Of a stretch of DNA of 64,000 nt, positions 5,134 through 22,483 are shown one piece after another. Position 1 is the first letter of the stretch. The number at the start of each line of letters is the position of its first letter. This DNA is from Candidatus Frackibacter sp. WG13 (lineage in GTDB: Bacteria; Bacillota; Halanaerobiia; Halobacteroidales; Acetohalobiaceae), in contig NZ_FOTT01000011.1 of the NCBI RefSeq assembly GCF_900114655.1, positions 1 through 64,000 of the forward strand, in the 5' to 3' direction. Below the pieces are notes generated by a model that did not search any database, had not been told where the DNA came from, and worked only from the letters and a program-made list of their open reading frames with translations. Both the position numbers and the translations under genes were made by a program.

Positions 5134-5178
5134 AATTTTGGAAACTAGATTTTAGTCAAAAAAAATTCAAATTTACAC

Positions 5179-5207
5179 TTTACATTATTTTACATTTATG
5201 CTATTAT
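5179..5207 (+). promoter_or_regulatory. Likely promoter of the cytochrome island
   Basis: TTTACA (5179-5184), a 17-base spacer and TATTAT (5202-5207) form a good promoter about 330 bases upstream of the first cytochrome gene. The -35 region overlaps the first copy of a 15-base repeat found again at 5312-5326. Confidence 0.5.
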
Positions 5208-5311
5208 ATTATTAGTAAATGATAAATAAGTACTTAACAAGACATGAAGTGAAGATATTCACTATAGTAAATAAGGCAATTGGAAATAGAGATAAATTTT
5301 TTTAATCATAA

Positions 5312-5352
5312 TTTACATTATTTTACTTTTAAACCATGAAAAGTAAAATAAT
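5312..5352. promoter_or_regulatory. Candidate operator: 14-bp inverted repeat
   Basis: ATTATTTTACTTTT (5317-5330) is repeated inverted at 5339-5352 around 8 bases, with no mismatch. Its left side is part of a 15-base direct repeat (TTTACATTATTTTAC) also present at 5179-5193 over the promoter -35. ATTATTTTAC therefore occurs three times upstream of the cytochrome genes. It lacks a T tract suited to termination, so a protein-binding site is more likely. Confidence 0.5.
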
Positions 5353-5535
5353 AATTTATTAAGACTTTTAGAAAAATGATCCCCCTTGATAACTCCCCTA
5401 AAAAACTGGATAACAAAGTGAGGTGATATTTTAATATAACCAGTTAGTGAATAATATCGCAAGTATTATTAAATTGAATTTAAGCACAGTTCAAAATAGT
5501 TTACACTCACAAAATAAATGAAGGAGGGGACTGAC

Positions 5536-6297
5536 TTGAAGAAAATTAAGATTTCATTTTTGATCTGTTTGTTAATTGTTGTTGGATTGAGCTTAGTTTC
5601 TGAAAATGTATCTGCTATGGATTCTGAGCAATGTAAGCAGTGCCATCAGGATGTGAAGAAGAGTTGGGAGAAGTCTGGTCACGCTAAGATGGGAATTGCT
5701 TGTTTATCTTGTCACAAGTCAAATATGCAATTAAGACAAGACAAGAAAAAGCTTTGTAGCACATGTCATAGTACTGGAGAGATTCAAGCTGGTGGGTCGA
5801 TAGGAATGCCGCAGAAGGAAGTGTTTGAGGGAGAGAAAGTAGCATTCTTTACCGAAGATGCAATACCAAGTCGTCATTCAGCTTCTGAAGTAACGTGTGT
5901 AGATTGTCATATGCCGGATAATAAGAGCCATACTTTTGAAATTGTAATGCCGGTACCTCCAAAATCAGAAAATGATGAGAATGTAAAAGAGAAAGAGGCT
6001 AATAAAGATAAGAAGAAACGAGTAGCTTCTTGTACTACTTGTCATCAAGTTTTACCACCAGAATTGTTACAAAGAGAGATAGATTCAAAACAGGCTGTAG
6101 TGACTAATATGCAAAATCGAGTTAAAGAATTGTTAGAAGAGAAGAAAGAATTTAAAGGCCGAGATATTTATAAAAAAGCTAAAGCTAACTATAACTTTAT
6201 AAAAAAAGATGGTAGCAAGGGTATCCACAATTACTATTATATTAGAGATGTTTTAGGACATGCGGCTGAACAGTTGAGTAGTCTTGAGGAGAAATAG
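5536..6297 (+). CDS. Exported five-haem c-type cytochrome
   Basis: The protein is about 253 residues. An N-terminal hydrophobic segment (ISFLICLLIVVGLSLV) ends in VSA, a plausible signal peptidase site. Five CXXCH motifs follow: CKQCH, CLSCH, CSTCH, CVDCH and CTTCH. The first four lie in the N-terminal half; the last precedes a Lys/Glu-rich helical tail. I chose the TTG at 5536 because AAGGAGGG lies 7 bases upstream, while the ATG at 5518 precedes that site. The VTCVDCHMP segment recalls NrfA/HAO-like cytochromes. It starts the cytochrome gene set, with the 11-haem gene 24 bases downstream. If the signal is not cleaved, it could be membrane-anchored like NrfH. Confidence 0.85.
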   Translation: MKKIKISFLICLLIVVGLSLVSENVSAMDSEQCKQCHQDVKKSWEKSGHAKMGIACLSCHKSNMQLRQDKKKLCSTCHSTGEIQAGGSIGMPQKEVFEGEKVAFFTEDAIPSRHSASEVTCVDCHMPDNKSHTFEIVMPVPPKSENDENVKEKEANKDKKKRVASCTTCHQVLPPELLQREIDSKQAVVTNMQNRVKELLEEKKEFKGRDIYKKAKANYNFIKKDGSKGIHNYYYIRDVLGHAAEQLSSLEEK

Positions 6298-6321
6298 TAA
6301 GAATAGCATGGAGGGGGCATG

Positions 6322-7356
6322 ATGAAGAAAACTAGAAAAAATACATATTTAATACTAATATTACTAGTCATTATGTTAATTCCATTAGTTAATAATACAA
6401 AACCTGTGAAAGGTAAAGAGATAAAACAAGTTACAAGTTCAAAAGAATGCAAATTATGTCATGTACAATTATATTTTAATTGGAGTAAGACTCCTCATTA
6501 TCAAGGTTTTAAAGAATTATCTTCATCTCCAAAGTTTGATTATCGTAGTGAGTGTGAAGTTTGTCATAATACTCATGCAAAAAGAGATGAAATTTTAATT
6601 CCTGTTTCTTTTCAGGAAGCTAATCAAAAGTGTGGTGATAAGTGTCACTTTAAGAGTAATAATTTTCATAATGGTGAACAGATTACAACTATTAAAGAAA
6701 AAGATTGGTTAGAAAGTAATCATGGGCAAGGTAATGTAGCCTGTACACAATGTCATAGGCAGCATCAATCTGAAGATCAAAATTTGCAGAGTAGAGAGTT
6801 TTGTTTAAATTGCCATGGCCCAACAAATGTAATTTCATATTCTAATAAGACTAAAGAACATTATGCAGAAAAGAATTGTATAAATTGTCATAATCCACAT
6901 AAGAATTCATTAGATTTAAATTTATTCAAACGGAAGTATAGACATTATCCAGTAGCTAAAAATAAATGTTTTGAATGCCATAGTCCTCATAAGGCTTTTG
7001 GTGAAAAATTAACCAAAAACTCTGGTAATAATGTATGTTATAAGTGTCATGGTGCAAAGGAGTATGTCTTTACCAAAACAGGTCATGCTAAGGCTCAAGG
7101 GATAATAGGTAAGGGGTTATGTATTAATTGTCATACGCCACATAGTGCTGAGTATCAACCTTTATTGAGAAAAGAGATATCTAAGCTATGTCGATCTTGT
7201 CATGTTAACTATGGACCGCATCATTTTTTAGGAAATATTGAATTACAAAAAGAGATAGACTGTCTTACATGCCACTATCCTCATGGTGGAGCTAACAAGG
7301 CATCTTTAAAGATAAAAGCTCAGAACATATGTAAACAATGTCATGAACAATCATGA
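6322..7356 (+). CDS. Exported multihaem cytochrome, 11 CXXCH motifs (MtrA/DmsE-like)
   Basis: The protein has 344 residues. A signal peptide (YLILILLVIMLIPLV) is followed by CXXCH motifs spread evenly to the C-terminus: CKLCH, CEVCH, CTQCH, CLNCH, CINCH, CFECH, CYKCH, CINCH, CRSCH, CLTCH and CKQCH. A twelfth site, CGDKCH, has three residues between the cysteines. Size and haem density recall periplasmic decahaem cytochromes of the MtrA/DmsE type, which pass electrons into an outer-membrane barrel. I chose the ATG at 6322 over 6319 for spacing from GGAGGGGG. It is followed by an NHL-propeller gene 48 bases on. The MtrA link is inferred from layout. Confidence 0.85.
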   Translation: MKKTRKNTYLILILLVIMLIPLVNNTKPVKGKEIKQVTSSKECKLCHVQLYFNWSKTPHYQGFKELSSSPKFDYRSECEVCHNTHAKRDEILIPVSFQEANQKCGDKCHFKSNNFHNGEQITTIKEKDWLESNHGQGNVACTQCHRQHQSEDQNLQSREFCLNCHGPTNVISYSNKTKEHYAEKNCINCHNPHKNSLDLNLFKRKYRHYPVAKNKCFECHSPHKAFGEKLTKNSGNNVCYKCHGAKEYVFTKTGHAKAQGIIGKGLCINCHTPHSAEYQPLLRKEISKLCRSCHVNYGPHHFLGNIELQKEIDCLTCHYPHGGANKASLKIKAQNICKQCHEQS

Positions 7357-7404
7357 AAATGAATTAGTTAGACTAAAAAATATATTTATAGCGAGGGGTG
7401 AATT

Positions 7405-8562
7405 ATGAATATACACATTACAAATAGAAGACGACTGAATAATATTTTTGTACTGGGATTAGTAATAGGAATTATCTTTTTAAGTTTGAATACTCCGGTA
7501 TTAGCTAAGGATAATGATACAGATGAACAAGTAGTAAAAAAGAATAAACAAGAGGAGAAAATGGATGAAGTTTATGTACAGGATCGCATGAAAGCATTAG
7601 CAATTACATATGGTAGTACTCGGGAAAAAGGGATTTTGGCAAGTATTAAGAGATTCTTTGTAGGCTCTAAACCTCTAGTTGAGTTTAATAAACCTTTTGG
7701 AATTGCAGTAGATAATTCAACAGGTAAGTTTTACGTAACAGATGCTGTTAAGAGTGAAATACTAGTATTTAATGCCGATGGCTCTTATCTCAAGAAGATT
7801 GGAGTAAAGAGATTAGAGAATCCAACTGGTATTGATATAATTAAAGATAAGATTTATGTTTCTAATTCTACCAAAAATCGAATTACTATATTTAATACAA
7901 AGGGAAAATTTATTAATGAATTTGGTTATATAACAGATAAAAAAGATATAAAAAGACTTAAAAGACCAACAGGTTTAGCAATTGATGAGAAGAGAAAGCG
8001 AGTCTATGTGGCAGATACAAGAGGCCATAATATACAGGTTTATAATTTAAAAGGAAAATTACTTAAGGTAATTGGTAAACAACGAGGTAATATTCATGGA
8101 ACATTTAATTATCCAATTGCGGTTGCTGTAGATCAAAAAGGAAAAATCTACGTAGGAGATACTCTTAATTATCGAGTGCAAATTCTAAATTCAAAAGGAG
8201 AGTTTGTTAGACAGATTGATGGTGGTCCTGGTCAAACTTTAGGAAGTTTGCCACGGGCAAAAGGTATTGCTATCGATAATAAAGGTCGAACTTATATAAC
8301 TGATGGTTACTTGCAGGTTGTACAGATATTTAATCAAAAAGGCAAGTTAACCTCTTTCTTTGGTCGACCTGGTGTAAGTGATAAGCAGTTTCGATTGCCA
8401 GCAGAAATAGAGATTGATGATCAAGGTCGAATATATATTGTTGATACTATGAATAGAAGAGTACAGGTATTAAAGCTCCAACCTCCAAAGAAAGAAGATA
8501 AATCTAATAAGAATAAAGATGTTAAACAAAAGAAGTCTGATAATAAATCTGACAATAACTAA
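7405..8562 (+). CDS. Exported NHL-repeat beta-propeller protein
   Basis: The protein has 385 residues. The signal peptide (IFVLGLVIGIIFLSL) ends near VLA. From about residue 88 to 355 there are six NHL-type repeats with the recurring pattern PFGIAVD...KFYVTDA...I.VFN.DG, consistent with a six-bladed propeller. The C-terminal 25 residues are Lys/Asn/Asp-rich and disordered. NHL propellers usually bind proteins or glycans, so a scaffold role for the cytochromes is possible. A paralogue lies at 13781-14881 with similar repeats, and each precedes a cytochrome with a shared haem module. Confidence 0.88.
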   Translation: MNIHITNRRRLNNIFVLGLVIGIIFLSLNTPVLAKDNDTDEQVVKKNKQEEKMDEVYVQDRMKALAITYGSTREKGILASIKRFFVGSKPLVEFNKPFGIAVDNSTGKFYVTDAVKSEILVFNADGSYLKKIGVKRLENPTGIDIIKDKIYVSNSTKNRITIFNTKGKFINEFGYITDKKDIKRLKRPTGLAIDEKRKRVYVADTRGHNIQVYNLKGKLLKVIGKQRGNIHGTFNYPIAVAVDQKGKIYVGDTLNYRVQILNSKGEFVRQIDGGPGQTLGSLPRAKGIAIDNKGRTYITDGYLQVVQIFNQKGKLTSFFGRPGVSDKQFRLPAEIEIDDQGRIYIVDTMNRRVQVLKLQPPKKEDKSNKNKDVKQKKSDNKSDNN

Positions 8563-8581
8563 GTTTTAAATTTTATATAGC

Positions 8582-8629
8582 TTTTGCCTATTTGTCTAGA
8601 GATGGTAGAGTATCTCTAGACAGGCAAAA
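8582..8629 (+). promoter_or_regulatory. Strong hairpin in the leader of the four-haem cytochrome gene
   Basis: TGTCTAGAGAT (8593-8603) pairs perfectly with ATCTCTAGACA (8612-8622). The stem is extended by TTTTGCC (8582-8588) with GGCAAAA (8623-8629) across a 4-base bulge. There is no T tract on either side, so it is unlikely to terminate. It lies 20 bases before the ribosome site of the next gene and may be an mRNA processing or stabilising element. Confidence 0.55.
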
Positions 8630-8660
8630 ATCTATCCCAGTATAGAAAGGAGGTGAGATT

Positions 8661-9482
8661 ATGAAGAAGCTAGGAGTTCTTTTCCTATCTGCTTTGGTAA
8701 TAGCTCTATTTGCCATACCAGCAGCAGCTGCTGATGCTACTTTGGATACTGATGGTACTTACGGAATCGATGGTTCTGGCCATGATTTCAGTATAGATCA
8801 GGATTCAGCTGCATTAGGGACTACTGGTAACGGTTATGATGTTCTAACTGGTGCTGATATCTCTTGTGTAGGATGCCACGTTCCTCACAACACTAATTCA
8901 GAGGAAGAAGGAGCTTTATTCAGTGATTACTATAATGGTTCTGGTACTACTACTGATGCAGCTTTGACTCCTCCAGGCAAATTATATAACTTTGCAGAGT
9001 TCAGTACTGCTACAAAGTTATGTATGAGCTGTCACGATGGTACTATGACAGTACCTCAAACAGCAGGTACTACTACTGAAGACACTAGTACTGCTGGTAA
9101 CGCTGGAGGTCAAGTTACTTTAGCAGAGAACGTCATTACTCGAGACTTAAATGATGATCACCCAGTAGGTATCCAGTATGAACCTGGAAGATTCAGAGGT
9201 ATTACAACAACTTCTTGGGGTGCTAAGATGGTTGACTTAAACCCAGGTGATGAATCTTTCGCTTTATTAAGTGAAAGTGTGAGTGGAACATATGACGATA
9301 TAGTTAGTTGCTATACTTGTCACGATCCACACTTAGACCTTGATGGTATGGCAGGAGACGAAGACTCTTTCTTAAGAGTTAAGCCTGCACAAGCTTGGGC
9401 ACAGTCACCAGTAGATATAGCTACCTTCCAAGAAGGTGGGCATGCTGCTGAGAACCTTTGTATCCAGTGTCACCAGAAGTAA
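8661..9482 (+). CDS. Exported four-haem cytochrome, candidate extracellular filament subunit
   Basis: The protein has 273 residues with a clear signal peptide (LGVLFLSALVIALFAIPAAA) and a mature chain rich in Gly, Thr, Ser and Asp. Four CXXCH motifs: CVGCH, CMSCH, CYTCH and CIQCH. Five further His (GHDF, VPHN, DDHPV, DPHL, GGHA) can supply distal ligands. The order CVGCHVPH, CMSCHDGT, NDDHPVG, CYTCHDPH also occurs in the first part of the 15-haem cytochrome at 14932-17106. The ribosome site AAAGGAGGTGAG is near perfect, and the codons are richer in AAC, ATC, TTC and GAC than those of its neighbours, so very high expression is likely. Four haems, small size and abundance recall OmcE-type filament cytochromes; polymerisation is inference. 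An intrinsic terminator follows. Confidence 0.85.
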   Translation: MKKLGVLFLSALVIALFAIPAAAADATLDTDGTYGIDGSGHDFSIDQDSAALGTTGNGYDVLTGADISCVGCHVPHNTNSEEEGALFSDYYNGSGTTTDAALTPPGKLYNFAEFSTATKLCMSCHDGTMTVPQTAGTTTEDTSTAGNAGGQVTLAENVITRDLNDDHPVGIQYEPGRFRGITTTSWGAKMVDLNPGDESFALLSESVSGTYDDIVSCYTCHDPHLDLDGMAGDEDSFLRVKPAQAWAQSPVDIATFQEGGHAAENLCIQCHQK

Positions 9483-9537
9483 AATTAATTAAATTATAAG
9501 TGCTTATTATAAGTGCTTATTAAAGCTGGACTTAACT

Positions 9538-9562
9538 AAAGGGCTCTTTTAGAGCCCTTTAG
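9538..9562 (+). terminator. Hairpin terminator after the four-haem cytochrome gene
   Basis: AAAGGGCTCT (9538-9547) pairs with AGAGCCCTTT (9551-9560) around three T. The tail after it is only weakly T-rich. A tandem 13-base repeat (TATAAGTGCTTAT twice) lies just before it, at about 9496-9521. Confidence 0.65.
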
Positions 9563-9773
9563 CCCTTTAAATGCTATATTTTGAATATTATATTGTATTA
9601 GTTTTAATAACTTATTATGTATTATATATCTAAATTGTTACGAAACTATGATATAAATATTATGAATTTATGAATTAATAATGTTTAAATGTATTTTTAT
9701 AATAAAATAACCAAAAAAGTAATACAAAAAATAAGAAATTAGACTAATTAATCTTTAGATTGGAGGTAATATT

Positions 9774-11609
9774 TTGAAAGAGATTAATAAGTATCAGAAT
9801 TATTTATACTTAGCACCTATCGCTTTTATAATTAGTATTATTCCTTTGATAGTATATTTGAAGAAAGTCCGATTACAATATTTTTTACTTAGATACTGGA
9901 CAGGTACCAAATTTAATTGGGATTATTTTTCTTATTATAAGATGGTGTGGTTTTTAATAGTTACTGCTGTTGCTATAATATTATTTATTGTTTATTTAAG
10001 AAAGAGTAATAAATTAAAAAAGACTTATTATTATCTACCTTTAGGAATCTATGCTTTTTTTATTATAATTTCTACATTTTTATCGGAATATAAAGTAATT
10101 GCTTTTTTTGGATTTCCGGATCGTTATGAAGGAATGTTTGTTTTACTTTCATATTTGGTTATAACCTTTATTACAATAAATTTAGTTAATACTAAGCAAG
10201 ATATAAAATTTTTAGTAGGGTCTCTATTAATGTCTGCTTTTATTTTAGGTATTTTAGGTATTTTTCAGTATTTTGGTTTAGATTTTTTTAAGACATTAAC
10301 AGGACAGTTATTAATTATGCCTGATACATTACATACTGCCGCAGGAACAATAGATACTAAATTTCCTCCAAATACTATATATGCTACTCTGTATAATCCC
10401 AATTATGTTGGGAGTTATATGGTTATCTTATTTAGTTTTACTTTAGGATTATATATTTTAATTAAGAATAAGAAGTATAAATTAATGGTGGGTATCTTTA
10501 ATATTTTGATATTTGCTAATTGGCTTGGTTCTCGTTCACGGGCAGGAATAGTCGGTGGCTTTTTTGCAATATTACTTTTAATTATATTATTATATCAAAG
10601 AATAGTTAAGGATTACAAGTATGTTTTAGGAATTATTTGTTGTTTTATTGTAGTATTTAGCATTATGAATTATGCAGCTAATGGTGATTTAGGAAGTGAG
10701 TTATTATCCCTAGGAAAAGAGACTAGGATGGTTTTTGGTGAAGGTAAAGTAAGTAACCTTAAAGATATCGAAATGAATGATAATAGATTATCTATCATAA
10801 CAGAGACAGAAACGTTAAATGTTGTTTTAAAAGAGAATAATTATTTAAAATTTTATAATCAGCTTAACGAAGAGATTTTTTATTCATCTTCTAGATATCC
10901 AGATCCTTATGAAGAGGGGGAATATGTAAATGTAATTAAGCTTCATGACCGGCAGTATAAAAATTATCATTTTACATATGTACCGAGAAAAGACCTACTT
11001 CACTTCGAATACGATAAGCTCTTTGGTAATAAAAGAATGAAAGTTAATTTTAAATTGACTGAAAAAGGCTTGCGAATTATGGGAATAAAAAGGAATTTAT
11101 ATAAACTGAAGGAGATAGAACATTGGGGGTTTAAGAATAAAGAGCGTTTAGGATCAGGGCGTGGATTTATTTGGTCTAGATCACTTCCAATATTGAAAGA
11201 TACTTTTATTACTGGGTATGGTCCTGACACTTTTGCTCTTTATTTTCCACAGAATGATTTTATCGGTAAGCTTAAGACATTTGGTAATGTATTGCAGATT
11301 GTAGACAAGCCTCATAATCTATATTTACAGATCGCAATTAATACTGGACTAGTCTCACTTTTAGCTGTTTTATCTTTATTTATTTTCTATTTTATATCAA
11401 GTATTAAGCTTTATTGGCAGATAGAATTAAATGATACTTATACTATAGTTGGCTTCGGAGTCTTAGTTGCTTTTACAGGTTATATTACAACAGGATTCTT
11501 TAATGATAGTGTAATTTCTGTTGCACCTATCTTTTGGGTATTATTAGGGTTAGGAATAAGCATTAATTTAAAGATAAAAGAAGTTTATAGTGAAGAATTA
11601 AATAAATGA
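9774..11609 (+). CDS. O-antigen ligase / O-oligosaccharyltransferase-like membrane protein
   Basis: The protein has 611 residues and about a dozen membrane segments. WzyC-type motifs are visible: PDRYEGMFVLLSYLV near 115, NPNYVGSYMVILF near 215, NWLGSRSRAGI near 255, and KPHNLYLQIAINTGL in the last third, the usual loop with the catalytic His. Between about residues 305 and 480 there is an unusually long external, beta-rich segment. The family joins polysaccharide to lipid A core, to another lipid, or (PglL type) to protein. Start is TTG at 9774 behind GGAGGT. Lying inside the cytochrome island, it may attach glycan to the cytochromes or to a matrix polymer. Substrate cannot be told from sequence. 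Confidence 0.8.
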   Translation: MKEINKYQNYLYLAPIAFIISIIPLIVYLKKVRLQYFLLRYWTGTKFNWDYFSYYKMVWFLIVTAVAIILFIVYLRKSNKLKKTYYYLPLGIYAFFIIISTFLSEYKVIAFFGFPDRYEGMFVLLSYLVITFITINLVNTKQDIKFLVGSLLMSAFILGILGIFQYFGLDFFKTLTGQLLIMPDTLHTAAGTIDTKFPPNTIYATLYNPNYVGSYMVILFSFTLGLYILIKNKKYKLMVGIFNILIFANWLGSRSRAGIVGGFFAILLLIILLYQRIVKDYKYVLGIICCFIVVFSIMNYAANGDLGSELLSLGKETRMVFGEGKVSNLKDIEMNDNRLSIITETETLNVVLKENNYLKFYNQLNEEIFYSSSRYPDPYEEGEYVNVIKLHDRQYKNYHFTYVPRKDLLHFEYDKLFGNKRMKVNFKLTEKGLRIMGIKRNLYKLKEIEHWGFKNKERLGSGRGFIWSRSLPILKDTFITGYGPDTFALYFPQNDFIGKLKTFGNVLQIVDKPHNLYLQIAINTGLVSLLAVLSLFIFYFISSIKLYWQIELNDTYTIVGFGVLVAFTGYITTGFFNDSVISVAPIFWVLLGLGISINLKIKEVYSEELNK

Positions 11610-11727
11610 CATTTATGATCTATTAAGTAGCATTGAAAGGGCACTATTAATTATATTACTAAATAATCGGGTTAAAGTTAGAAATTCAAATTTAGAAAGG
11701 ATAAGATAATATGAGGAGTATGCTATT

Positions 11728-13686
11728 ATGAAGAGAAATTTTACAATTATAAGAATTATATTAATAGTTCTGATTAGCATATTATTAACTCAGAATACTT
11801 TAGCTCGTGGTCTAGATCTTCAAGGTTATTTAAGATGGAAAAGCGATTATAGGAAGAATAAAGATGGAGCTAGTGATTATAATGCATATAGTGATTATAG
11901 CCTTGAACTTGGGAAGGCAGGGGTGCTTTTTATACCACAGATAGGTTATTATGATTTTGGCTTAAATTATCGCGACTATCTTTATAAATCCGAAGGATTA
12001 GAGCCTAAAGTAACTGGTTATCATCTTAATACTGATCTGTTTCCGATGAGTCCTATGTCTTTAGGCTTAAATACAAGTAAAAGTAAACGAGAATACAAAA
12101 CGGATAAGATAACATCTCCTGTGGATACCATATCTAAAAGTTCTTCGGTTTCTTTATCCAGTCCTTTACCTTTTGGATTGCGGTTCCAGACAGAATTGAA
12201 GAAAAAACAAAATTTTGATGTAAAAAAGGCAAAGATAAATGATAAAAATTATGAATATGATCTGTCTTTAAATAAGAATTTATCTTTTGGAGAGTATAGA
12301 GATACTGCTTTCTTAAATACTAAAATAACTGGTAAATATAATAAAATGTTTACAAAAGATTTAATTAATAATAAAACTAAGAATAAATTTATCAATAGAT
12401 ATATTTCTATTAATAATTATTTTCATAAAGATTGGTTCTCTCTGTCTGATATTGATGGTGTATATTATATTACTGACCGTAAGAAGAAACGGAATATTGG
12501 TTATAATTTACGTACTAAATGGCAACCATTAAAGTATTTAGAAACACAAGTAAGTCATAAAAAAAGAATTGAGAAGGAGGAGATAGAGGAGGATAGCTAT
12601 ATCTTTGAAGATTCAAATACCGAATCAACAGTAGCATTTACTGCTACTCCTTATCCAATTTTGAGTTTTAATGGTGAGATTAATAAAATAGATTCGAAAA
12701 AAAGAGCTGGACTTGCTTCAAATGATTTAATAATAGAATTAGGCTTTGATACTTCATATTGGAAGGAAGCACCAATTGAATTTGATATATCTAGCACCAG
12801 TCAAGAGACTTTTGATCAAATAAATAATCTTAGAATCAACAGACAGGAGAATGTAGAATTAAGTTTGGAGAGTAACCTAAATTTTAAAGATATTAATTCT
12901 AAAGTTAATTTTTCTAATAATAGTAATAAAGAGTTCGAAACAGGGTATAAAGTATTTGAAAAACAGAATACTAGCTTATCATTAGAAGATAATCTCTATG
13001 ATATTGAATCTATTTTAAAGATTTCTAATAGCACTCAAAAAAGATTTAATAAGAATTATAAAATATCTAGTCAACAACAGACGTCTTTAAGTTTAGATTT
13101 AGATAAAGAATTTGTAAATCTTTATTTTGGTAATTTTACTCTTGAGTCTTCTTATAACCAAAATATTAAATGGAAAAAAGAGATTAAAGATGAAGTAATT
13201 AAAAATAGAAGAACTGATGTTACTCAGAAATTTAGTGCTGAGCTTAATTATCAGCGTTATTTAACTAAAAATTTATATTTTAATGGAAGAACTGAGTATG
13301 ATTCTAATCTAAAAGATTTTGAATATAAACCTAATTATGACTTAGATTTATTATATAATCCTACTTATAGTGATTTAAAATTTAAATTAGGAGTAGAAGG
13401 TTACCATGAAGATGAAGAAGATAATATAGGTGAAAAGGTAAAAAATTATCGTCAATGGGAAGGTGAAATTAGTTATTCCAAAGGATGGTCACAATTGAGT
13501 ATGAATCTGTGGCAAGATAATGATTTTGTAGCAGATAAATGGGATAGGAGTATTAATCTCAATGTGAGGTATCGTTATCGATCTATAGTATTAAAATTAG
13601 ATGTATCATGGCGAGAAACAGGTGGTAATACTTATAATCCAGGTGATACTTTAGAGGTAACTACTGGTATAACACGTTACTTTTAA
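11728..13686 (+). CDS. Large outer-membrane beta-barrel protein, candidate conduit porin
   Basis: The protein has 652 residues. The signal peptide (IIRIILIVLISILLT) is cleaved near TLA-RG. The mature chain is made of alternating-polarity strands with many Tyr, Asn, Lys and Ser, and it ends GITRYF, the terminal-Phe signal typical of outer-membrane barrels. No Cys or haem motif was seen. Size suits a barrel of 20 or more strands, similar to MtrB-type sheaths. Internal similarity is visible (repeats around KQNTSLSLEDN and QQTSLSLDLD). It sits between the O-antigen-ligase-like gene and an NHL propeller in the cytochrome island, suggesting it houses a cytochrome across the outer membrane. The family is unassigned. 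Confidence 0.75.
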   Translation: MKRNFTIIRIILIVLISILLTQNTLARGLDLQGYLRWKSDYRKNKDGASDYNAYSDYSLELGKAGVLFIPQIGYYDFGLNYRDYLYKSEGLEPKVTGYHLNTDLFPMSPMSLGLNTSKSKREYKTDKITSPVDTISKSSSVSLSSPLPFGLRFQTELKKKQNFDVKKAKINDKNYEYDLSLNKNLSFGEYRDTAFLNTKITGKYNKMFTKDLINNKTKNKFINRYISINNYFHKDWFSLSDIDGVYYITDRKKKRNIGYNLRTKWQPLKYLETQVSHKKRIEKEEIEEDSYIFEDSNTESTVAFTATPYPILSFNGEINKIDSKKRAGLASNDLIIELGFDTSYWKEAPIEFDISSTSQETFDQINNLRINRQENVELSLESNLNFKDINSKVNFSNNSNKEFETGYKVFEKQNTSLSLEDNLYDIESILKISNSTQKRFNKNYKISSQQQTSLSLDLDKEFVNLYFGNFTLESSYNQNIKWKKEIKDEVIKNRRTDVTQKFSAELNYQRYLTKNLYFNGRTEYDSNLKDFEYKPNYDLDLLYNPTYSDLKFKLGVEGYHEDEEDNIGEKVKNYRQWEGEISYSKGWSQLSMNLWQDNDFVADKWDRSINLNVRYRYRSIVLKLDVSWRETGGNTYNPGDTLEVTTGITRYF

Positions 13687-13780
13687 TCTGTTGAATTTTG
13701 AAGTTTAACTAGACAATCGACTAATATTTAGATAATAATTACATATAAAAGTAACTAAAATATTTTTAGGAGGGAAGACA

Positions 13781-14881
13781 ATGAAAAATTATGATAAATA
13801 TAACTATGATTTTCTAACGTATATAACATTAATAATAACTGTAATTATAATAACTATTTTAAGTATAAGTATGGGCTTTCCTGTAAAAGTGAGTGCTGCT
13901 CAAGAGAAAAAAACAGATTTTCGTAAGTATTGGCCATCACCAAATAATGCTAAGATTAAATTTATACGTAGTATTTCTCATGCCCAACAATTAAAGCCTA
14001 AACAAGAAGAAAGTTTATGGGGTAAAATTGTAGACTTTCTTTTAGGACAGGAAGAGAGTAAAGCTAGATTAGAAAGACCTTTTGGTTTAAGTAGTTTCAA
14101 TAATGAATTATATATTGCAGACCCAACTGCCCAAGCAGTATATAAGATAGATTTTAATGAGCATAAAATGAAAAAAATTTTATATAAGAGTGAAGGGTCA
14201 TTCTTTTCTGGAGAAGGGAAGAAATATTTTGAAACGCCTATTGATGTAGTAGTGGATGGTAAAAAAATATTTGTTTCTGACTCTTCCCAACAAGAAGTTT
14301 TAGTTTTTTCTAATAAAGGTAAATTAATTAAACGATTAGGAGTTAAGAAATTTAAGAGACCTACAGGGTTAGGAATTGATAGAAAGCAGAATCGATTATA
14401 CATAGTTGATACTATAGAAAGTAGAGTTTATATTTATGATACTAATACTTATAAATTAATAAAAAGCTTTGGACAACGAGGAGTAAAAGCAGGGAGATTT
14501 AACTATCCAATTGATATTTCTGTAAAGAATGAAAAGGTGTATGTTAGTGATTCTATGAATTTTAGAGTACAAATTTTTGATTTAAAAGGCAATTTTATTT
14601 CCAAGTTTGGTGATTTAGGAGATAGTTCAGGTAGGTTTGCCCGACCAAAAGGACTAGCTGTTGATAGTGATGGACATATTTATGTAGTTGATACTTTATT
14701 TGGAGTTGTGCAAATCTTTAATGAACAAGGACAGTTATTATTAATCTTAGGGGAGAAAGGGACGGACTTAGGTGAATTTTGGTTGCCAACGGGAATTTAT
14801 ATTGATCAACAGAATAAGATTTATGTAGCTGATTCACATAATCACCGAATACAGATATTTAAATATTTAGGTAAGCAATAA
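13781..14881 (+). CDS. Second exported NHL-repeat beta-propeller protein
   Basis: The protein has 366 residues with one N-terminal hydrophobic segment (ITLIITVIIITILSI), probably a signal peptide ending at VSA. NHL repeats run from about residue 98 to 362 (FGLSSFNNELYIADP, PIDISVKNEKVYVSD, GLAVDSDGHIYVVD and similar). It resembles the protein at 7405-8562, including the FNYPI-V-V and RVQI-N blade edges, but lacks the charged tail. RBS AGGAGGG precedes the ATG. The 15-haem cytochrome follows closely, so the propeller-then-cytochrome order occurs twice in this island. Confidence 0.88.
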   Translation: MKNYDKYNYDFLTYITLIITVIIITILSISMGFPVKVSAAQEKKTDFRKYWPSPNNAKIKFIRSISHAQQLKPKQEESLWGKIVDFLLGQEESKARLERPFGLSSFNNELYIADPTAQAVYKIDFNEHKMKKILYKSEGSFFSGEGKKYFETPIDVVVDGKKIFVSDSSQQEVLVFSNKGKLIKRLGVKKFKRPTGLGIDRKQNRLYIVDTIESRVYIYDTNTYKLIKSFGQRGVKAGRFNYPIDISVKNEKVYVSDSMNFRVQIFDLKGNFISKFGDLGDSSGRFARPKGLAVDSDGHIYVVDTLFGVVQIFNEQGQLLLILGEKGTDLGEFWLPTGIYIDQQNKIYVADSHNHRIQIFKYLGKQ

Positions 14882-14931
14882 GCGGCTAAAATACTAGAAA
14901 TTAGTATCAATATAATACTTTGGAAGAGGTG

Positions 14932-17106
14932 ATGAAAGTAATTATGAATATTACTAAAAAAGTTATAGTTTGCATGCTAATACAGTTGATTATGTTATTT
15001 GTTTTTACTAATTTTGTTGTGGCAGATACATATGACACAAGAGATTCAGCACATAATTTAACTGTTACTGGAACAGGGGATATAAAATCTAATGAAGGCG
15101 ATAACTATTGTCTGTATTGTCATACACCACATTTTGCTGATCCAATTGAGCCATTGTGGAATCATAAAATGTCAGGACAAACTTATACTCTTTATGATAG
15201 TTCTACTACGGATGCAAGAGACATCGGACAGCCAAATGGAACATCTGCTTTATGTTTAAGTTGTCATGATGGGACAATTGCTATGGGGGATGTTAATTAT
15301 GCTCGTTCTGTAGGAAGAGATGAAACTATCACTGATAGTGGTAGTGAGAAGTTAGATTCTTCTAATACTTTTGCTAATACAGCTAAAGCTAATTTAGGAG
15401 TTAATATTGCCAATGATCATCCAATTAGCTTTGTTTATGATCCTACGTTAGCAGAAAAAGATGAGGGATTAGTAGACCCTACTATGGCACCTAGTGGTCT
15501 AGGTGATACTATTAATATTGATATGTTAGATAGTAATTCTAGATTGCAATGTACTTCGTGTCATGAACCCCATGATAATACTTATGGAAACTTTTTAATT
15601 AAAGATAATACTAATGGTGAATTATGTACTACTTGTCATGATAAAACTGGTTGGGCAACTGGAAATGCTCATTATGATGCTGGGGTTACTTGTAATGATT
15701 GTCATACTTCTCATAATGCTAATGAACCAGCACAATTGAAGGCTGCTACTGAAGAGCAGTTATGCTATACATGTCATGATGATGATGGGAGTCGCTATAG
15801 TGAATGGGATTCAATACCTGATATCGGTAGTGTAATAGATAAGGCTAATAACAATAGAGGCTCTGTGCATCCAATAGAAGATGGGAACTTAACAGGACGA
15901 CATGATGCAATAGAGAATAATGATCCAAGTAATAACTTGCCAATTTTTGCTGCTAATAAACATGCGGAGTGTTCTGACTGCCATGACCCTCATCAAGTTA
16001 CAGGTACCAATGCTTTCGCAGGAGTGCCAGGTTTCGATTTAAGTGGTACTTTAATTACTTCAGTGACAAATAGTTATGAGTTATGCTATAAATGTCATCA
16101 AGGGGCTAATGGTTTACAAGAAAGTATAGATAGTGTGAAATATACTTTTGATAATAGAACTTATACTCATGGTAATGAGACTAATGCTGAACAATGTAAT
16201 AAATGTCACGGTGGGAATAGTGTAGATGTAACTACTGAGGCAATTCATGGTTCTAATGCATCAGGTTTATTAACCAAGTCGCAATTTATTGATATATTTA
16301 ATCCAAGTACTAGTGATCTTTGCTTAAAATGTCATGATGATGCTACTAATGGACAACAACCTAAAATTTACTTTACGCAAGCCGTAGGTTCACAACACAA
16401 TACAAAGTGTACTGCTTGTCATGGTGATAGTGTTAATTATAATAATATTATAAATGTAGGAAGTGAAACAGGTGTGCCTCATGGTTCCAACAAACCTTCG
16501 ATTCTCAAAGGAAGTGACCCACAGGTATGTCTTGATTGTCATAGTGATAAATTTAGTGGATATAATACAATCCACGATTTACAGGACCTTAGTTATGATG
16601 ATGGTAATAATGGGCAAGTAGCTTTTAACAATGGATTTACTTCTAATACGAACATGAAATGTACTGCCTGTCATGGAAATAGTAATAATAGCAATCAGGG
16701 CAGTCAAACTGGAATCCCCCATGGTTCAGATCAACCAAAATTATTGAAAAATGATTGGGATCCGAACTTTGGTATTGAAGGTAGAAGTGGTGATTCATCA
16801 ATATGTTTAGACTGCCATGATAGTAATACTTATGGAATAAATGCGAGCCAAAATGCTAGTTCAGGGTTTACTGGTAGAGATGGTGGTGAGAATTTACACG
16901 AAGAACATAATGACTTTAATTGTGCATCGTGCCATGCAGTGCATGGAGCGAATAATGATCAAAGTCGATCACTATTAAAAGACTCAGCATCTTCTGGGAA
17001 TTTCTATGATCATGGCAGTGGTGGAGATACCTATTTGACAATAATCAATTGGAGTCAAAGTGGAAATTGGGGGCAGGATGATTGTGATCATAGTGGATGT
17101 GGATAA
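14932..17106 (+). CDS. Exported 15-haem c-type cytochrome
   Basis: The protein is about 724 residues. The signal peptide (IVCMLIQLIMLFVFT) ends near VVA. I count 15 CXXCH motifs, from CLYCH near residue 60 to CASCH near 675, many followed by PH or DD. The first four-haem block (CLYCHTPH, CLSCHDGT, NDHPISF, CTSCHEPH, CTTCH) has the order of the separate four-haem cytochrome at 8661. A later block repeats internally (PHGSNKPSILKGS and PHGSDQPKLLKND). The C-terminus has an extra CDHSGCG. Start is uncertain between 14932 and 14944. It is likely periplasmic-to-surface or secreted, acting as a large electron-transfer chain. There is no terminator before the sugar transferase, 66 bases on. Confidence 0.88.
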   Translation: MKVIMNITKKVIVCMLIQLIMLFVFTNFVVADTYDTRDSAHNLTVTGTGDIKSNEGDNYCLYCHTPHFADPIEPLWNHKMSGQTYTLYDSSTTDARDIGQPNGTSALCLSCHDGTIAMGDVNYARSVGRDETITDSGSEKLDSSNTFANTAKANLGVNIANDHPISFVYDPTLAEKDEGLVDPTMAPSGLGDTINIDMLDSNSRLQCTSCHEPHDNTYGNFLIKDNTNGELCTTCHDKTGWATGNAHYDAGVTCNDCHTSHNANEPAQLKAATEEQLCYTCHDDDGSRYSEWDSIPDIGSVIDKANNNRGSVHPIEDGNLTGRHDAIENNDPSNNLPIFAANKHAECSDCHDPHQVTGTNAFAGVPGFDLSGTLITSVTNSYELCYKCHQGANGLQESIDSVKYTFDNRTYTHGNETNAEQCNKCHGGNSVDVTTEAIHGSNASGLLTKSQFIDIFNPSTSDLCLKCHDDATNGQQPKIYFTQAVGSQHNTKCTACHGDSVNYNNIINVGSETGVPHGSNKPSILKGSDPQVCLDCHSDKFSGYNTIHDLQDLSYDDGNNGQVAFNNGFTSNTNMKCTACHGNSNNSNQGSQTGIPHGSDQPKLLKNDWDPNFGIEGRSGDSSICLDCHDSNTYGINASQNASSGFTGRDGGENLHEEHNDFNCASCHAVHGANNDQSRSLLKDSASSGNFYDHGSGGDTYLTIINWSQSGNWGQDDCDHSGCG

Positions 17107-17172
17107 ACATGTGTATCCACATATAATGAAAAAATGTTATATTATTATGTGAGATTAAGAGAGGTGTCATAA

Positions 17173-17838
17173 ATGTCTAAGATAGATTCTGAGATTGTTA
17201 ATTCTAGAGTCAAAGAGGTATGGTTAAAAAGAAAAAGGAGTAAAAAATTTAGTTATCAATCATATTTAATCATTAAACGCTTGTTAGATATAATAGTCTC
17301 GCTAACTGGTTTAATATTGACGCTACCGTTAATATTAATAGTAGCTATTACAATTAAGGTTGAAACTCCAGGACCAATTATATTTAAACAATCAAGGCTT
17401 GGTTTAGCGGGGGAGGAATTTACTATCTATAAATTTAGATCAATGATAGAAAATGCAGAGGAAAAGACGGGTCCAGTTTGGGCTCAGAAAGATGACCCAC
17501 GAATAACTAAAGTGGGTCATTTTATTCGTAAGAAACGTATTGATGAAATACCTCAGTTTGTGAATGTATTAAAAGGAGAGATGTCTTTAGTAGGTCCTAG
17601 GCCAGAGCGAGAAATTTTTATAAAGAAATTTAGTGATGAGCATCCATCTTTTAAGAATAGATTACTAATTAAACCAGGAATAACTGGACTGGCACAGGTG
17701 ACAGGAGGATATGAATTGACGCCTAGACAAAAAACAAGATTGGATTTGCTTTACATACATAACCAAGGATTAATTTTAGATATTAAGATATTATTGAAGA
17801 CGGTATTAGTTGTTATTTTAGAAAAAGGAGTGCGATAA
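17173..17838 (+). CDS. Undecaprenyl-phosphate sugar phosphotransferase (bacterial sugar transferase family)
   Basis: The protein has 221 residues. One N-terminal membrane helix (DIIVSLTGLILTLPLILIVA) precedes the catalytic domain with KFRSM, KVGHFIRKKRIDEIPQF and SLVGPRPER, all signatures of the WcaJ/PglC-like family that loads the first sugar-phosphate onto undecaprenyl phosphate. Length fits the short, catalytic-domain-only form. It ends the cytochrome island, 66 bases after the 15-haem gene. Together with the ligase-like protein at 9774 it implies a glycan pathway tied to the cytochromes, although no other glycosyltransferases are present here. Confidence 0.9.
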   Translation: MSKIDSEIVNSRVKEVWLKRKRSKKFSYQSYLIIKRLLDIIVSLTGLILTLPLILIVAITIKVETPGPIIFKQSRLGLAGEEFTIYKFRSMIENAEEKTGPVWAQKDDPRITKVGHFIRKKRIDEIPQFVNVLKGEMSLVGPRPEREIFIKKFSDEHPSFKNRLLIKPGITGLAQVTGGYELTPRQKTRLDLLYIHNQGLILDIKILLKTVLVVILEKGVR

Positions 17839-18278: not shown

Positions 18279-19430
18279 ATGCTTGGAAAACTACTTAACT
18301 TTATTGAAAAAATAGATACTAGACCAATAAAGGTTAAAGAAAAATGTTGTACTAAAATTATATCTTCGAAAAGCAATTGCTCTGCCTGTCAAGATGTTTG
18401 TTCCCAGAATGCTATTATAATAGATGATGAAGAAATAAGAATAGATTTTGATAAATGTAATCAATGTGGACTTTGTGTTACTAGTTGTCCAAATCAAGTA
18501 TTTAATTTGGAAATAGATTCAGACTCTCATCTTTTGAATGAGGTTCAGAAAAAACTTAATGTAAGTTCAAATCTAATAATTCAATGTCAAGCAGCGAAAA
18601 AGAATAAAAATAGTATACAGATTAAATGCTTAGGAAGACTATCTGAAAGGTTATTATTAAAGTTACTCTTTACTGGTGCAGATTCAATTTGGTTGCAGTC
18701 AGGCCAATGTGCTCAATGTCAATTGCAAAGTGGACGTAAATTAATAGATAGAGCAGTAAATAATTGTAATTTTTTATTAAAAAACTACTTTGATGAATCT
18801 AGAATTATCATTTCAATGGAAGAACCTAATAATCTAAATTTTGAATCTTTTAATCTTAAAGAAACTAATTATGAAGGTAAAGAAGCTGAGGGACTTGGAA
18901 GAAGGGAGTTTATAAATAAGTTAAGAGACGAAAGTATTAATGGTCTAACAAGTTTATTGACTTTTAGCCAAAATGAAAAGACTGAAAAAGATAGTGTTGA
19001 GGTTAAAATTAATGATAAAAGAAAAGAATTATTATCATTAATTGAAAGGTTAGAAGATAATGTGACAAAGAATAAAAGAGTTGAGTCCTTATCTTTATTT
19101 TGGAAAGTAGATATCGGAATAGATTGTGATTTCTGTCAGATTTGTACTTCCTTATGTCCAAATAATGTTTTAGAACTAAAGAATGAAAAAGAAGAAAAGA
19201 AGATTGTAGCTAATCATAATCTTTGTACTAATTGTGGTCTTTGCGAAGATGTCTGTTATAAACAGCAGATTAGTATTAATCAAGACATCAATTATAACCT
19301 AGATAATAGTGAGCAAGAAGTAATAGTTGGACTGAAGAAGGTTTGTAATGAATGTCAGAAAGAATTTTACACTGCTAAGCAAGATAAAAAGATATGTAGT
19401 TTTTGTGAAAGTTCGAAAGGTATCTTATAA
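18279..19430 (+). CDS. Multi-cluster 4Fe-4S protein, function unknown
   Basis: The protein has 383 residues and no signal peptide. N-terminal ferredoxin module: CSACQDVC and CNQCGLCVTSCP (about 35-75). The middle has further Cys (QSGQCAQCQLQSG) in a region that recalls hydrogenase/heterodisulfide-reductase iron-sulfur subunits. C-terminal module: CDFCQICTSLCP and CTNCGLCEDVC, then a zinc-ribbon-like end, CNECQ...CSFC. It is most likely a cytosolic electron carrier or a subunit of a redox complex. It stands alone between the CRP-like site and a terminator. Confidence 0.75.
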   Translation: MLGKLLNFIEKIDTRPIKVKEKCCTKIISSKSNCSACQDVCSQNAIIIDDEEIRIDFDKCNQCGLCVTSCPNQVFNLEIDSDSHLLNEVQKKLNVSSNLIIQCQAAKKNKNSIQIKCLGRLSERLLLKLLFTGADSIWLQSGQCAQCQLQSGRKLIDRAVNNCNFLLKNYFDESRIIISMEEPNNLNFESFNLKETNYEGKEAEGLGRREFINKLRDESINGLTSLLTFSQNEKTEKDSVEVKINDKRKELLSLIERLEDNVTKNKRVESLSLFWKVDIGIDCDFCQICTSLCPNNVLELKNEKEEKKIVANHNLCTNCGLCEDVCYKQQISINQDINYNLDNSEQEVIVGLKKVCNECQKEFYTAKQDKKICSFCESSKGIL

Positions 19431-20918: not shown

Positions 20919-22013
20919 TTAGGAACTCTGCTGGTTGAGATATTTTTCTACTTTGTCTTCTTCCATTGGGTTTAATGTTACATATTCAGGAAGAGACCAA
21001 TCTCTAATTTTTCCTGACCATCTTTCTGGATGAGCTGCTTTAGCTTTTTTATATGTTTCAATACGCTTTTTCATTATATTTATATCAAGCCCGTAATGTC
21101 TCTGGTAGGGCGTTATAAAATTAATTCCACTATGTAAATGCTCATGATTGTACCAGTGAACAAATTTAGAGACCCATTTTCTGGATTCATTTAAGTCTTT
21201 AAAGCCTTGATTTGGATAAACAGGTCTATACTTCATTGTCTTAAATAGTGACTCAGAATAGGGATTATCGTTACTTACTCTTGGTCTTGAAAATGAACTT
21301 TGAACTCCTAGTTTTTCGAGTGTTGCCATAAATGTTGCTGCTTTCATAGGGCTACCGTTATCAGAATGTAATACTAACGGTTTATCTTTTTTAGCTGCTA
21401 TGCCTTGAAAAAGAGTTGCTTTTCTAATTAATCTTTTAGAGTACTCAGCATTTTCTGTTTCCCAGACTTCATGAGCAACTATTAGTCTGCTAAACATATC
21501 TACAATTAAATACAGTTTAAAGAATTTACCCTTGATAAAAGCATTGAGCCAAGTTATATCCCAGGTCCACACCTGATTGGGAGCAGTAGCTATATGAGTT
21601 GGTATTTCTCTTTTTACTGGCTCCTTAGATTTACTCCTATGGGTATTTAGTTTTTCTTCAGCTAATATTCTATAAAAAGTTGATTCCGAAGCAATATATT
21701 TACCCTTATCAGCTAATTTAGGTACAATTTTTGATGGTGGTAGGTCTGCAAACTTTTTACTGTTAGATACTCTAATAATTTCTTCTCTTTCTGATTTTGT
21801 TAATTTGTTTTTAGGTGGTTTTCTTTTAATCATTGGTCTTTGATCTTTCTTGATCCCACCGTTTTTAGTCCACCTTTGGTAGGTGCGGGAGCTAATTCCA
21901 AGCTCTCTACAGGCTGGTTTTAACCTTGCACCATTTTCTCTTGCTTCATTGATCAGCTTTACTGCTCTTATGCGATCTGAATCACTGATCAGTCTTCCTC
22001 GGGGTCCCCCCAA
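20919..22013 (-). CDS. IS3-family transposase OrfB (DDE integrase core)
   Basis: The protein has 364 residues. The N-terminal helix-turn-helix (ACRELGISSRTYQRW) is followed by an rve domain with the DDE residues in WTWDITWLNAF, LVLHSDNGSPM and NPYSESLFKTMK. The frame is -1 relative to orfA and overlaps it by 25 bases across GGGGGG, so it is made either by ribosomal frameshifting as an OrfAB fusion or from its own TTG. Confidence 0.92.
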   Translation of the reverse strand: MGGPRGRLISDSDRIRAVKLINEARENGARLKPACRELGISSRTYQRWTKNGGIKKDQRPMIKRKPPKNKLTKSEREEIIRVSNSKKFADLPPSKIVPKLADKGKYIASESTFYRILAEEKLNTHRSKSKEPVKREIPTHIATAPNQVWTWDITWLNAFIKGKFFKLYLIVDMFSRLIVAHEVWETENAEYSKRLIRKATLFQGIAAKKDKPLVLHSDNGSPMKAATFMATLEKLGVQSSFSRPRVSNDNPYSESLFKTMKYRPVYPNQGFKDLNESRKWVSKFVHWYNHEHLHSGINFITPYQRHYGLDINIMKKRIETYKKAKAAHPERWSGKIRDWSLPEYVTLNPMEEDKVEKYLNQQSS

Positions 22014-22483
22014 ATCGCATTTGACTTTTTTCTAAGTGTCAGTAAAGCTGCAGTTTCAGCGAGAGCTTTTTCCTTATATCTTAGTTCTTCCTGGAGTTCT
22101 TTATTTTTCTGTTTTTCATTTTTTAGGTTATCTTTAAGTTCTTTTGGATCTTCTAGTTTAGTATCATTAGCATTTTGACATTGCTTAGCCCAGCTTTTTA
22201 ATTCTTCAAGATGAATTCCTTTTTCTCGACAGTATTTAGAAGTTTCCAATTCAGAAAGACTGGCAGTTTCTAAGACAGCTTGAAACTTATCTTTAGAAGT
22301 CCATTTGCTCGCTCTTTTACTAGTAGCAGAGCTTTCTTTAAGAACCTTACTTCGCCAGGAATAAAGAGTATTTCTAGGTATGTCTAATTCTTTTGCTAAA
22401 TCAGGTACTTTTTCAGCATTTGGTGGAGCAAGTCTTTTAAAAACAGATTCTTTTAATTCTTTGGGATAAACTTTTTTGGGCAT
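21989..22483 (-). CDS. IS3-family transposase OrfA (DNA-binding)
   Basis: The protein has 164 residues. A helix-turn-helix region near the start (DLAKELDIPRNTLYSWRSKV) is followed by a second one, then a leucine-rich coiled coil (NEKQKNKELQEELRYKEKAL), as expected for the DNA-binding, multimerising part of IS3 transposases. The ATG at 22483 follows AAGGAG on the - strand. The last codons overlap orfB. Confidence 0.85.
   Translation of the reverse strand: MPKKVYPKELKESVFKRLAPPNAEKVPDLAKELDIPRNTLYSWRSKVLKESSATSKRASKWTSKDKFQAVLETASLSELETSKYCREKGIHLEELKSWAKQCQNANDTKLEDPKELKDNLKNEKQKNKELQEELRYKEKALAETAALLTLRKKSNAIWGDPEED

Follow-up and report, generated by a model that had tools for sequence, protein, structure and literature searches.

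Clusters that encode a porin together with periplasmic and outer multihaem cytochromes (porin-cytochrome conduits, Pcc) have been surveyed across six phyla, and that survey's text does not mention Firmicutes or Halanaerobiales (PMC4245776). Among Firmicutes, clusters 1-Fe-T to 3-Fe-T of Dethiobacter alkaliphilus combine MtrA/MtoA-like multihaem cytochromes with NHL proteins (PMC10376724). The closest described gene kit is that of Geoalkalibacter ferrihydriticus, where Ga0056053_02426-02431 include an MtoA homologue, an MtoA/C-like cytochrome, an OmcE homologue and two NHL proteins (PMC12016550). Here we describe an operon of nine + strand genes at positions 5518-17838 of a 64-kb stretch of DNA from Candidatus Frackibacter sp. 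WG13; that whole stretch (contig NZ_FOTT01000011.1, positions 1 to 64,000) is called the window. We consider it probable that the products of this operon form an electron conduit across the outer membrane and that this conduit is coupled to OmcE-type cytochromes outside the cell. To our knowledge, how cytochrome nanowires join an outer-membrane conduit is unsettled. That junction becomes directly testable in an operon where genes for an MtrA-like wire and a barrel stand together with those for an OmcE-like subunit and for an OmcE/multihaem fusion.

Gene content of the operon

A recount agrees with the preliminary description of this DNA in finding nine same-strand genes with 35 CXXCH haem-binding motifs, divided 5, 11, 4 and 15 among the four cytochrome genes. 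Its start at 5134 is corrected here, as the first operon gene begins at 5518. A six-frame scan of the window finds CXXCH 36 times, with 35 occurrences inside the operon and one elsewhere, so chance is excluded. The two NHL propellers, the O-antigen-ligase-like protein and the sugar transferase named earlier are all borne out by Pfam. The earlier inventory therefore holds for the parts of the operon, although it overlooked the OmcE homology, a paralogous operon and a third barrel pair.

The candidate trans-outer-membrane wire is encoded at 6319-7356. Its profile finds MtrA as best match in the PDB (6r2q_A, E 1.2e-21; chain A of 6r2q is MtrA of the MtrCAB crystal structure, under a mislabelled molecule name in the PDB copy searched), and it scores 99 bits against the NCBIfam DmsE family TIGR03508, under the cut-off of 192. 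These matches identify it as an MtrA-family homologue. Besides its 11 CXXCH motifs, the protein has a CX3CH site (CGDKCH) at residue 105. Because this site is kept in three homologues, the protein probably carries 12 haems, for which its 26 histidines (His) would suffice with bis-His ligation. A scan of genome contigs with this protein returned three generic multihaem loci (Marinilabiliales, Ignavibacteria), none of which has this operon.

The second line of evidence comes from the 4-haem and 15-haem cytochromes. The 4-haem protein (8661-9482), a putative filament subunit, matches the Geobacter nanowire cytochrome OmcE (7tfs_A, E 5e-6) and 9yuq (E 1e-7). The 15-haem protein (14920-17106), a secreted cytochrome that may act at the cell surface or as a nanowire adaptor, is composite. 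An OmcE-like tetrahaem domain (about residues 32-242; 7tfs_A, E 2.7e-24) is joined to a part with 11 more haems, and from residue 206 onward the protein matches MtrA (6r2q_A, E 2.5e-9). When the N-domain is searched alone, the match to OmcE (E 6e-24) reaches the C-terminus of OmcE. The 15-haem protein also matches the MtrC/MtrF-like domain II/IV family of Pfam (PF22113, E 1.8e-20, 73.7 bits against a cut-off of 30), but not the OmcA/MtrC family TIGR03507 of NCBIfam. In OmcE filaments, one distal His per subunit is supplied by the neighboring subunit (PMC12307469). Both the 4-haem protein and the 15-haem N-domain retain OmcE's four CXXCH motifs and its four distal His, within the conserved ligand motifs HD[LF]S/HNL, CHxPH, DHP and CHxxH. 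On the strength of these alignments, both are homologous to OmcE over its full length.

The third component is a putative outer-membrane beta-barrel of 652 residues (11728-13686), a candidate for an MtrB-sized sheath. It has a signal peptide, no Cys and a C-terminus of RYF, and it has no match in Pfam, NCBIfam or the PDB sequences. Its sequence contains 25 amphipathic-strand peaks, compared with 13.4 in shuffles (z 4.3). The same character is seen in the four complete members of the family, which have 22-26 peaks against 10-13 when shuffled (z 4.3-5.9, controls negative) and end in RYF or RRF. The barrel is 34% identical to its paralogue in the same genome. Its identity to its orthologue in a related genome, G050 (L011:7851-9671), is 42%, so that it diverges far faster than the other eight orthologues (~66%-72%); perhaps exposed loops are under selection from outside.

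The remaining genes fit around these components. A pentahaem c-type cytochrome of 259 residues (5518-6297) is probably a periplasmic carrier. Residues 118-238 give a weak Pfam match to Cytochrom_C552, alongside c7/c3 matches; its C-terminal half resembles NrfA/cytochrome c552, and it is 70% identical to its G050 orthologue. The two NHL beta-propellers are predicted to be exported. The first (7405-8562; PF01436, 2e-29) is 44% identical to the NHL protein in the same position of the operon in the more distant genome G273, and the second (13781-14881; PF01436, 5e-33) is 68%-69% identical to both relatives compared. The two glycan genes encode a Wzy_C/O-antigen-ligase-like membrane protein, a candidate O-oligosaccharyltransferase (9774-11609; PF04932, 1.9e-12; 72% identical to its G050 orthologue), and a bacterial sugar transferase of the initiating phosphoglycosyltransferase type (17173-17838; PF02397, 2e-67; TIGR03025 above cut-off). 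Since OmcE filaments are heavily glycosylated (PMC13319180, PMC9473688), these two are best read as a putative pair for filament O-glycosylation.

The 4-haem gene is bracketed by stable RNA hairpins on the + strand. One of 14 bp lies in the upstream gap (8563-8660). Another of 12 bp with no U tail lies 3' of the gene (9536-9562); it is conserved in all three operons, including that of G050, and a scan of this 3' gap found no terminator. The paralogous 4-haem gene likewise has hairpins before (8 bp) and after (19 bp) it. These elements lack U tails and have the look of stabilizers or attenuators in the mRNA of a subunit produced in surplus, and their presence around both genes is fitting for a high-copy subunit.

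Conservation and supporting machinery

How far is this arrangement conserved? Among 59 genomes of the class, the barrel and the doubled-CXXCH proteins are found in two, the genome described here and G050, which belongs to another genus of the same family. G050 has the identical nine genes in identical order. The expectation that gene order would be conserved in relatives is thus upheld in a second genus but not class-wide. Beyond the class, only G225 and G273 of 398 genomes of the phylum encode homologous barrels. These two genomes, with a guanine-plus-cytosine (GC) content near 60%, are members of one small, distant class. G273 has a reduced order of 9-haem gene, NHL, 4-haem gene and barrel, and G225 has a 4-haem gene and a barrel, with no MtrA-like gene on its 11-kb contig. 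Comparison of order across loci indicates a conserved core of multihaem wire, NHL protein, OmcE-like protein and barrel. Two marginal barrel matches, obtained from the phylum genomes with an improved profile, contain internal stops and were judged to be chance, and the barrel had no match in the scan of genome contigs.

The genome itself (2.77 Mb, 48 contigs) contains a second, paralogous operon on contig C11 (L008:374-19045). Its order is NHL, 4-haem, two GGDEF-HD, 5-haem, 5-haem, 11-haem, NHL, 4-haem, barrel, 4-haem, NHL, 14-haem, ResB and CcsA. The 4-haem equivalent matches OmcE at E 7e-17, and two more OmcE-like proteins are encoded on C11, one of them matching at E 7e-28. Two genes of this operon were considered as Wzy-like and rejected, both being GGDEF-HD (cyclic-di-GMP) proteins; they lie near its start, with ResB/CcsA at its end. 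Some 9 kb beyond it (L009) are genes for Fe2+ transport proteins and for an iron permease of the FTR1 type. A third barrel/MtrA-like pair lies on the - strand of C17 (L032:10759-13597). An 8-haem DmsE/MtrA-family protein (6r2q_A, E 1.3e-28) is encoded first, and after it comes a putative barrel of 679 residues, which has a signal peptide, ends in GLEGGF and has no family match.

The preliminary description supposed that genes for quinol oxidation and haem maturation lie elsewhere, and they are indeed found on other contigs. NapC/NrfH-type cytochromes are encoded on C15, C17 and C4. A Ccm (system I) cluster on C17 (L013:2573-7890) comprises CcmB, CcmC/CcmF-type, CcmE and CcmF proteins by Pfam and an ATP-binding cassette subunit by reading, and the ResB/CcsA (system II) genes at L008:16606-19045 close the C11 operon. 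The genome therefore has both cytochrome c maturation systems. Complex I subunits are encoded, and a UbiE methyltransferase and a polyprenyl synthase adjoin one NrfH-like gene. One MqnA-type match occurs in each of the five family genomes tested, so a quinone pool is likely to be present. With Omp85/BamA present in this genome (PF01103, E 1.2e-54), the host is diderm.

Several neighborhoods are of separate interest. On C4 (L031:166-8516), two 6-haem NapC-like proteins stand beside a flavin mononucleotide-binding/4Fe-4S protein and an NHL protein with a twin-arginine translocation signal; NHL propellers repeatedly neighbor cytochromes in this genome. On C15 (L030:6217-7987), a 7-haem cytochrome and a cytochrome b561-type protein are encoded downstream of the complex I genes. 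In the window, a polyferredoxin with an FlpD-like domain (18279-19430) directly follows the operon and might donate or accept electrons in the cytoplasm. An IS110-family transposase (864-2111) lies ~3.4 kb from the operon on one side and an rve-type (IS3-like) transposase (20919-22483) ~3.1 kb on the other. Because these insertion sequences belong to different families, a composite-transposon origin was rejected. There is no sign of recent import from a high-GC donor; the GC content equals that of the surroundings, except in the 4-haem gene.

A proposed electron route and its alternatives

What route would electrons take? The quinol pool would reduce NapC/NrfH-type inner-membrane cytochromes, encoded outside the operon, and these would pass electrons to the periplasmic pentahaem protein and on to the 12-haem MtrA-like wire seated in the 652-residue barrel. 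From the wire, electrons would move to the 15-haem surface protein, then to the OmcE-like 4-haem protein, as filaments or monomers, and finally to an acceptor outside the cell. A matching interface for the first filament subunit could be presented by the OmcE-like domain of the 15-haem protein, glycosylation of the filament could fall to the Wzy_C protein and sugar transferase, and assembly or docking may be the role of the NHL propellers. It is a tentative further suggestion that the 15-haem protein is an adaptor, its 11 haems taking electrons from the barrel-held wire and its OmcE-like domain anchoring a glycosylated nanowire. If so, conduit, adaptor, filament and filament glycosylation would all come from one diderm-Firmicute operon.

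An extracellular electron transfer operon with an outer-membrane conduit in a diderm Firmicute, as first proposed, is well supported by homology, gene order and supporting machinery. Two of the terms then applied to it are not supported. “Complete” is too strong because neither a terminal reductase nor an acceptor was identified. “Independent version” does not fit the homology to MtrA and OmcE, which means that the parts share ancestry with the proteobacterial and Geobacter systems, even if they were put together separately.

There are also observations that weigh against a conduit coupled to OmcE-type filaments. First, no acceptor or reductase can be assigned to the conduit. Second, nothing in its sequence links the barrel to the MtrB/PioB family or to OmbB, and its AlphaFold model, from a 5-row alignment, is nearly all-beta with long strands but has a predicted local distance difference test (pLDDT) score of 35, leaving the topology unproven. 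The assignment of a barrel ending in Phe hence rests on sequence character; the statistics bear it out, but a confident structure model does not. Third, a lipobox was looked for in the 15-haem protein and none is present. Fourth, AlphaFold failed on the 4-haem protein (pLDDT 37, 11-row alignment), and the codon usage of its gene carries no high-expression signal. Fifth, glycosylation is not obligatory, as glycan genes are missing from the paralogous operon.

Some of these observations bear on whether a nanowire is formed at all. It is possible, if somewhat unlikely, that the OmcE-like proteins are monomeric secreted cytochromes. The unremarkable codon usage would suit this, as would the several divergent OmcE-like paralogues in the genome, and sequence cannot reveal filament formation. 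However, all four distal His are kept, including the one that a neighboring subunit supplies in OmcE, and both the glycan genes and the hairpins around the 4-haem gene are in keeping with a filament subunit.

A similar question arises for the barrel, which, instead of sheathing the 12-haem wire, might be a pore through which the cytochromes or glycan are exported. In each of the five loci, no more than one gene separates the barrel gene from an OmcE-like gene, and on the G225 contig, which lacks an MtrA-like gene, the barrel gene adjoins a 4-haem gene. We nonetheless regard this as unlikely, given that the protein matches the MtrB class of barrels in size and that a long multihaem wire gene is clustered with it in four of the five loci.

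It is equally doubtful that the conduit runs in reverse, with Fe(0), Fe(II), a cathode or a partner cell supplying electrons to an acetogen-type metabolism. In its favor, genes read as carbon monoxide dehydrogenase, phosphotransacetylase and acetate kinase lie in the same window, MtrA-family wires are also used in Fe(II) oxidation, as in MtoA (PMC10376724), and Selenihalanaerobacter (Halanaerobiales) became enriched when H2/CO2 was supplied to control cultures in serum vials (PMC6855130). Yet Marinobacter, and no halanaerobial, dominated the biocathode in that study (PMC6855130), quinol oxidation is the usual role of NapC-type cytochromes, and the direction of electron flow is not readable from sequence. 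Least probable, and indeed very unlikely, is that the conduit feeds a specific extracellular reductase, as DmsEF feeds DmsAB, with the secreted cytochromes as its donors: the 11-haem protein resembles the DmsE family, but neither the operon nor its paralogue nor the G050 copy contains or adjoins a gene for a molybdopterin or other reductase.

Comparison with described systems

The preferred reading, a conduit that hands electrons outward to OmcE-type cytochromes, places the operon between several known systems. As in MtrCAB of Shewanella (6R2Q), an MtrA-family wire, a putative barrel of MtrB size and a secreted multihaem cytochrome are encoded together. Unlike in MtrCAB, the wire probably has 12 haems rather than 10, the barrel is without detectable MtrB homology, and the place of MtrC is taken by a candidate surface cytochrome that fuses an OmcE-like domain to 11 haems and lacks a lipobox. 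The operon has the Pcc-type architecture of clustered barrel, periplasmic and outer multihaem cytochromes, which is kept in G050 and occurs as a paralogue on C11. In this it resembles the Pcc conduits of Geobacter (OmaB-OmbB-OmcB; PMC4245776), where porin, periplasmic wire and outer cytochrome share one cluster, although the cytochrome families differ. The 4-haem protein and the 15-haem N-domain are like OmcE (7TFS) in sequence and in every ligand His; unlike in OmcE, the domain here also occurs fused to 11 more haems, and polymerization is putative.

The Geoalkalibacter ferrihydriticus locus, compared by description only, belongs to the Desulfuromonadia and is described without Wzy_C or a sugar transferase (PMC12016550), unlike the operon here. 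No barrel is reported for the Dethiobacter alkaliphilus clusters (PMC10376724), which are otherwise similar in being Firmicute sets of MtrA/MtoA-like cytochromes with NHL proteins. No earlier description of this operon was found in the literature searched, which left most subscription papers outside its coverage. The putative barrel-type conduit occurs in two genera within a class of diderm Firmicutes, in which 57 of 59 sampled genomes are without one, and in a second, distant diderm class of the same phylum. What appears to be new is the combination of a barrel conduit and an OmcE system in a diderm Firmicute, together with an OmcE/multihaem fusion, assembled from parts that are related to known ones.

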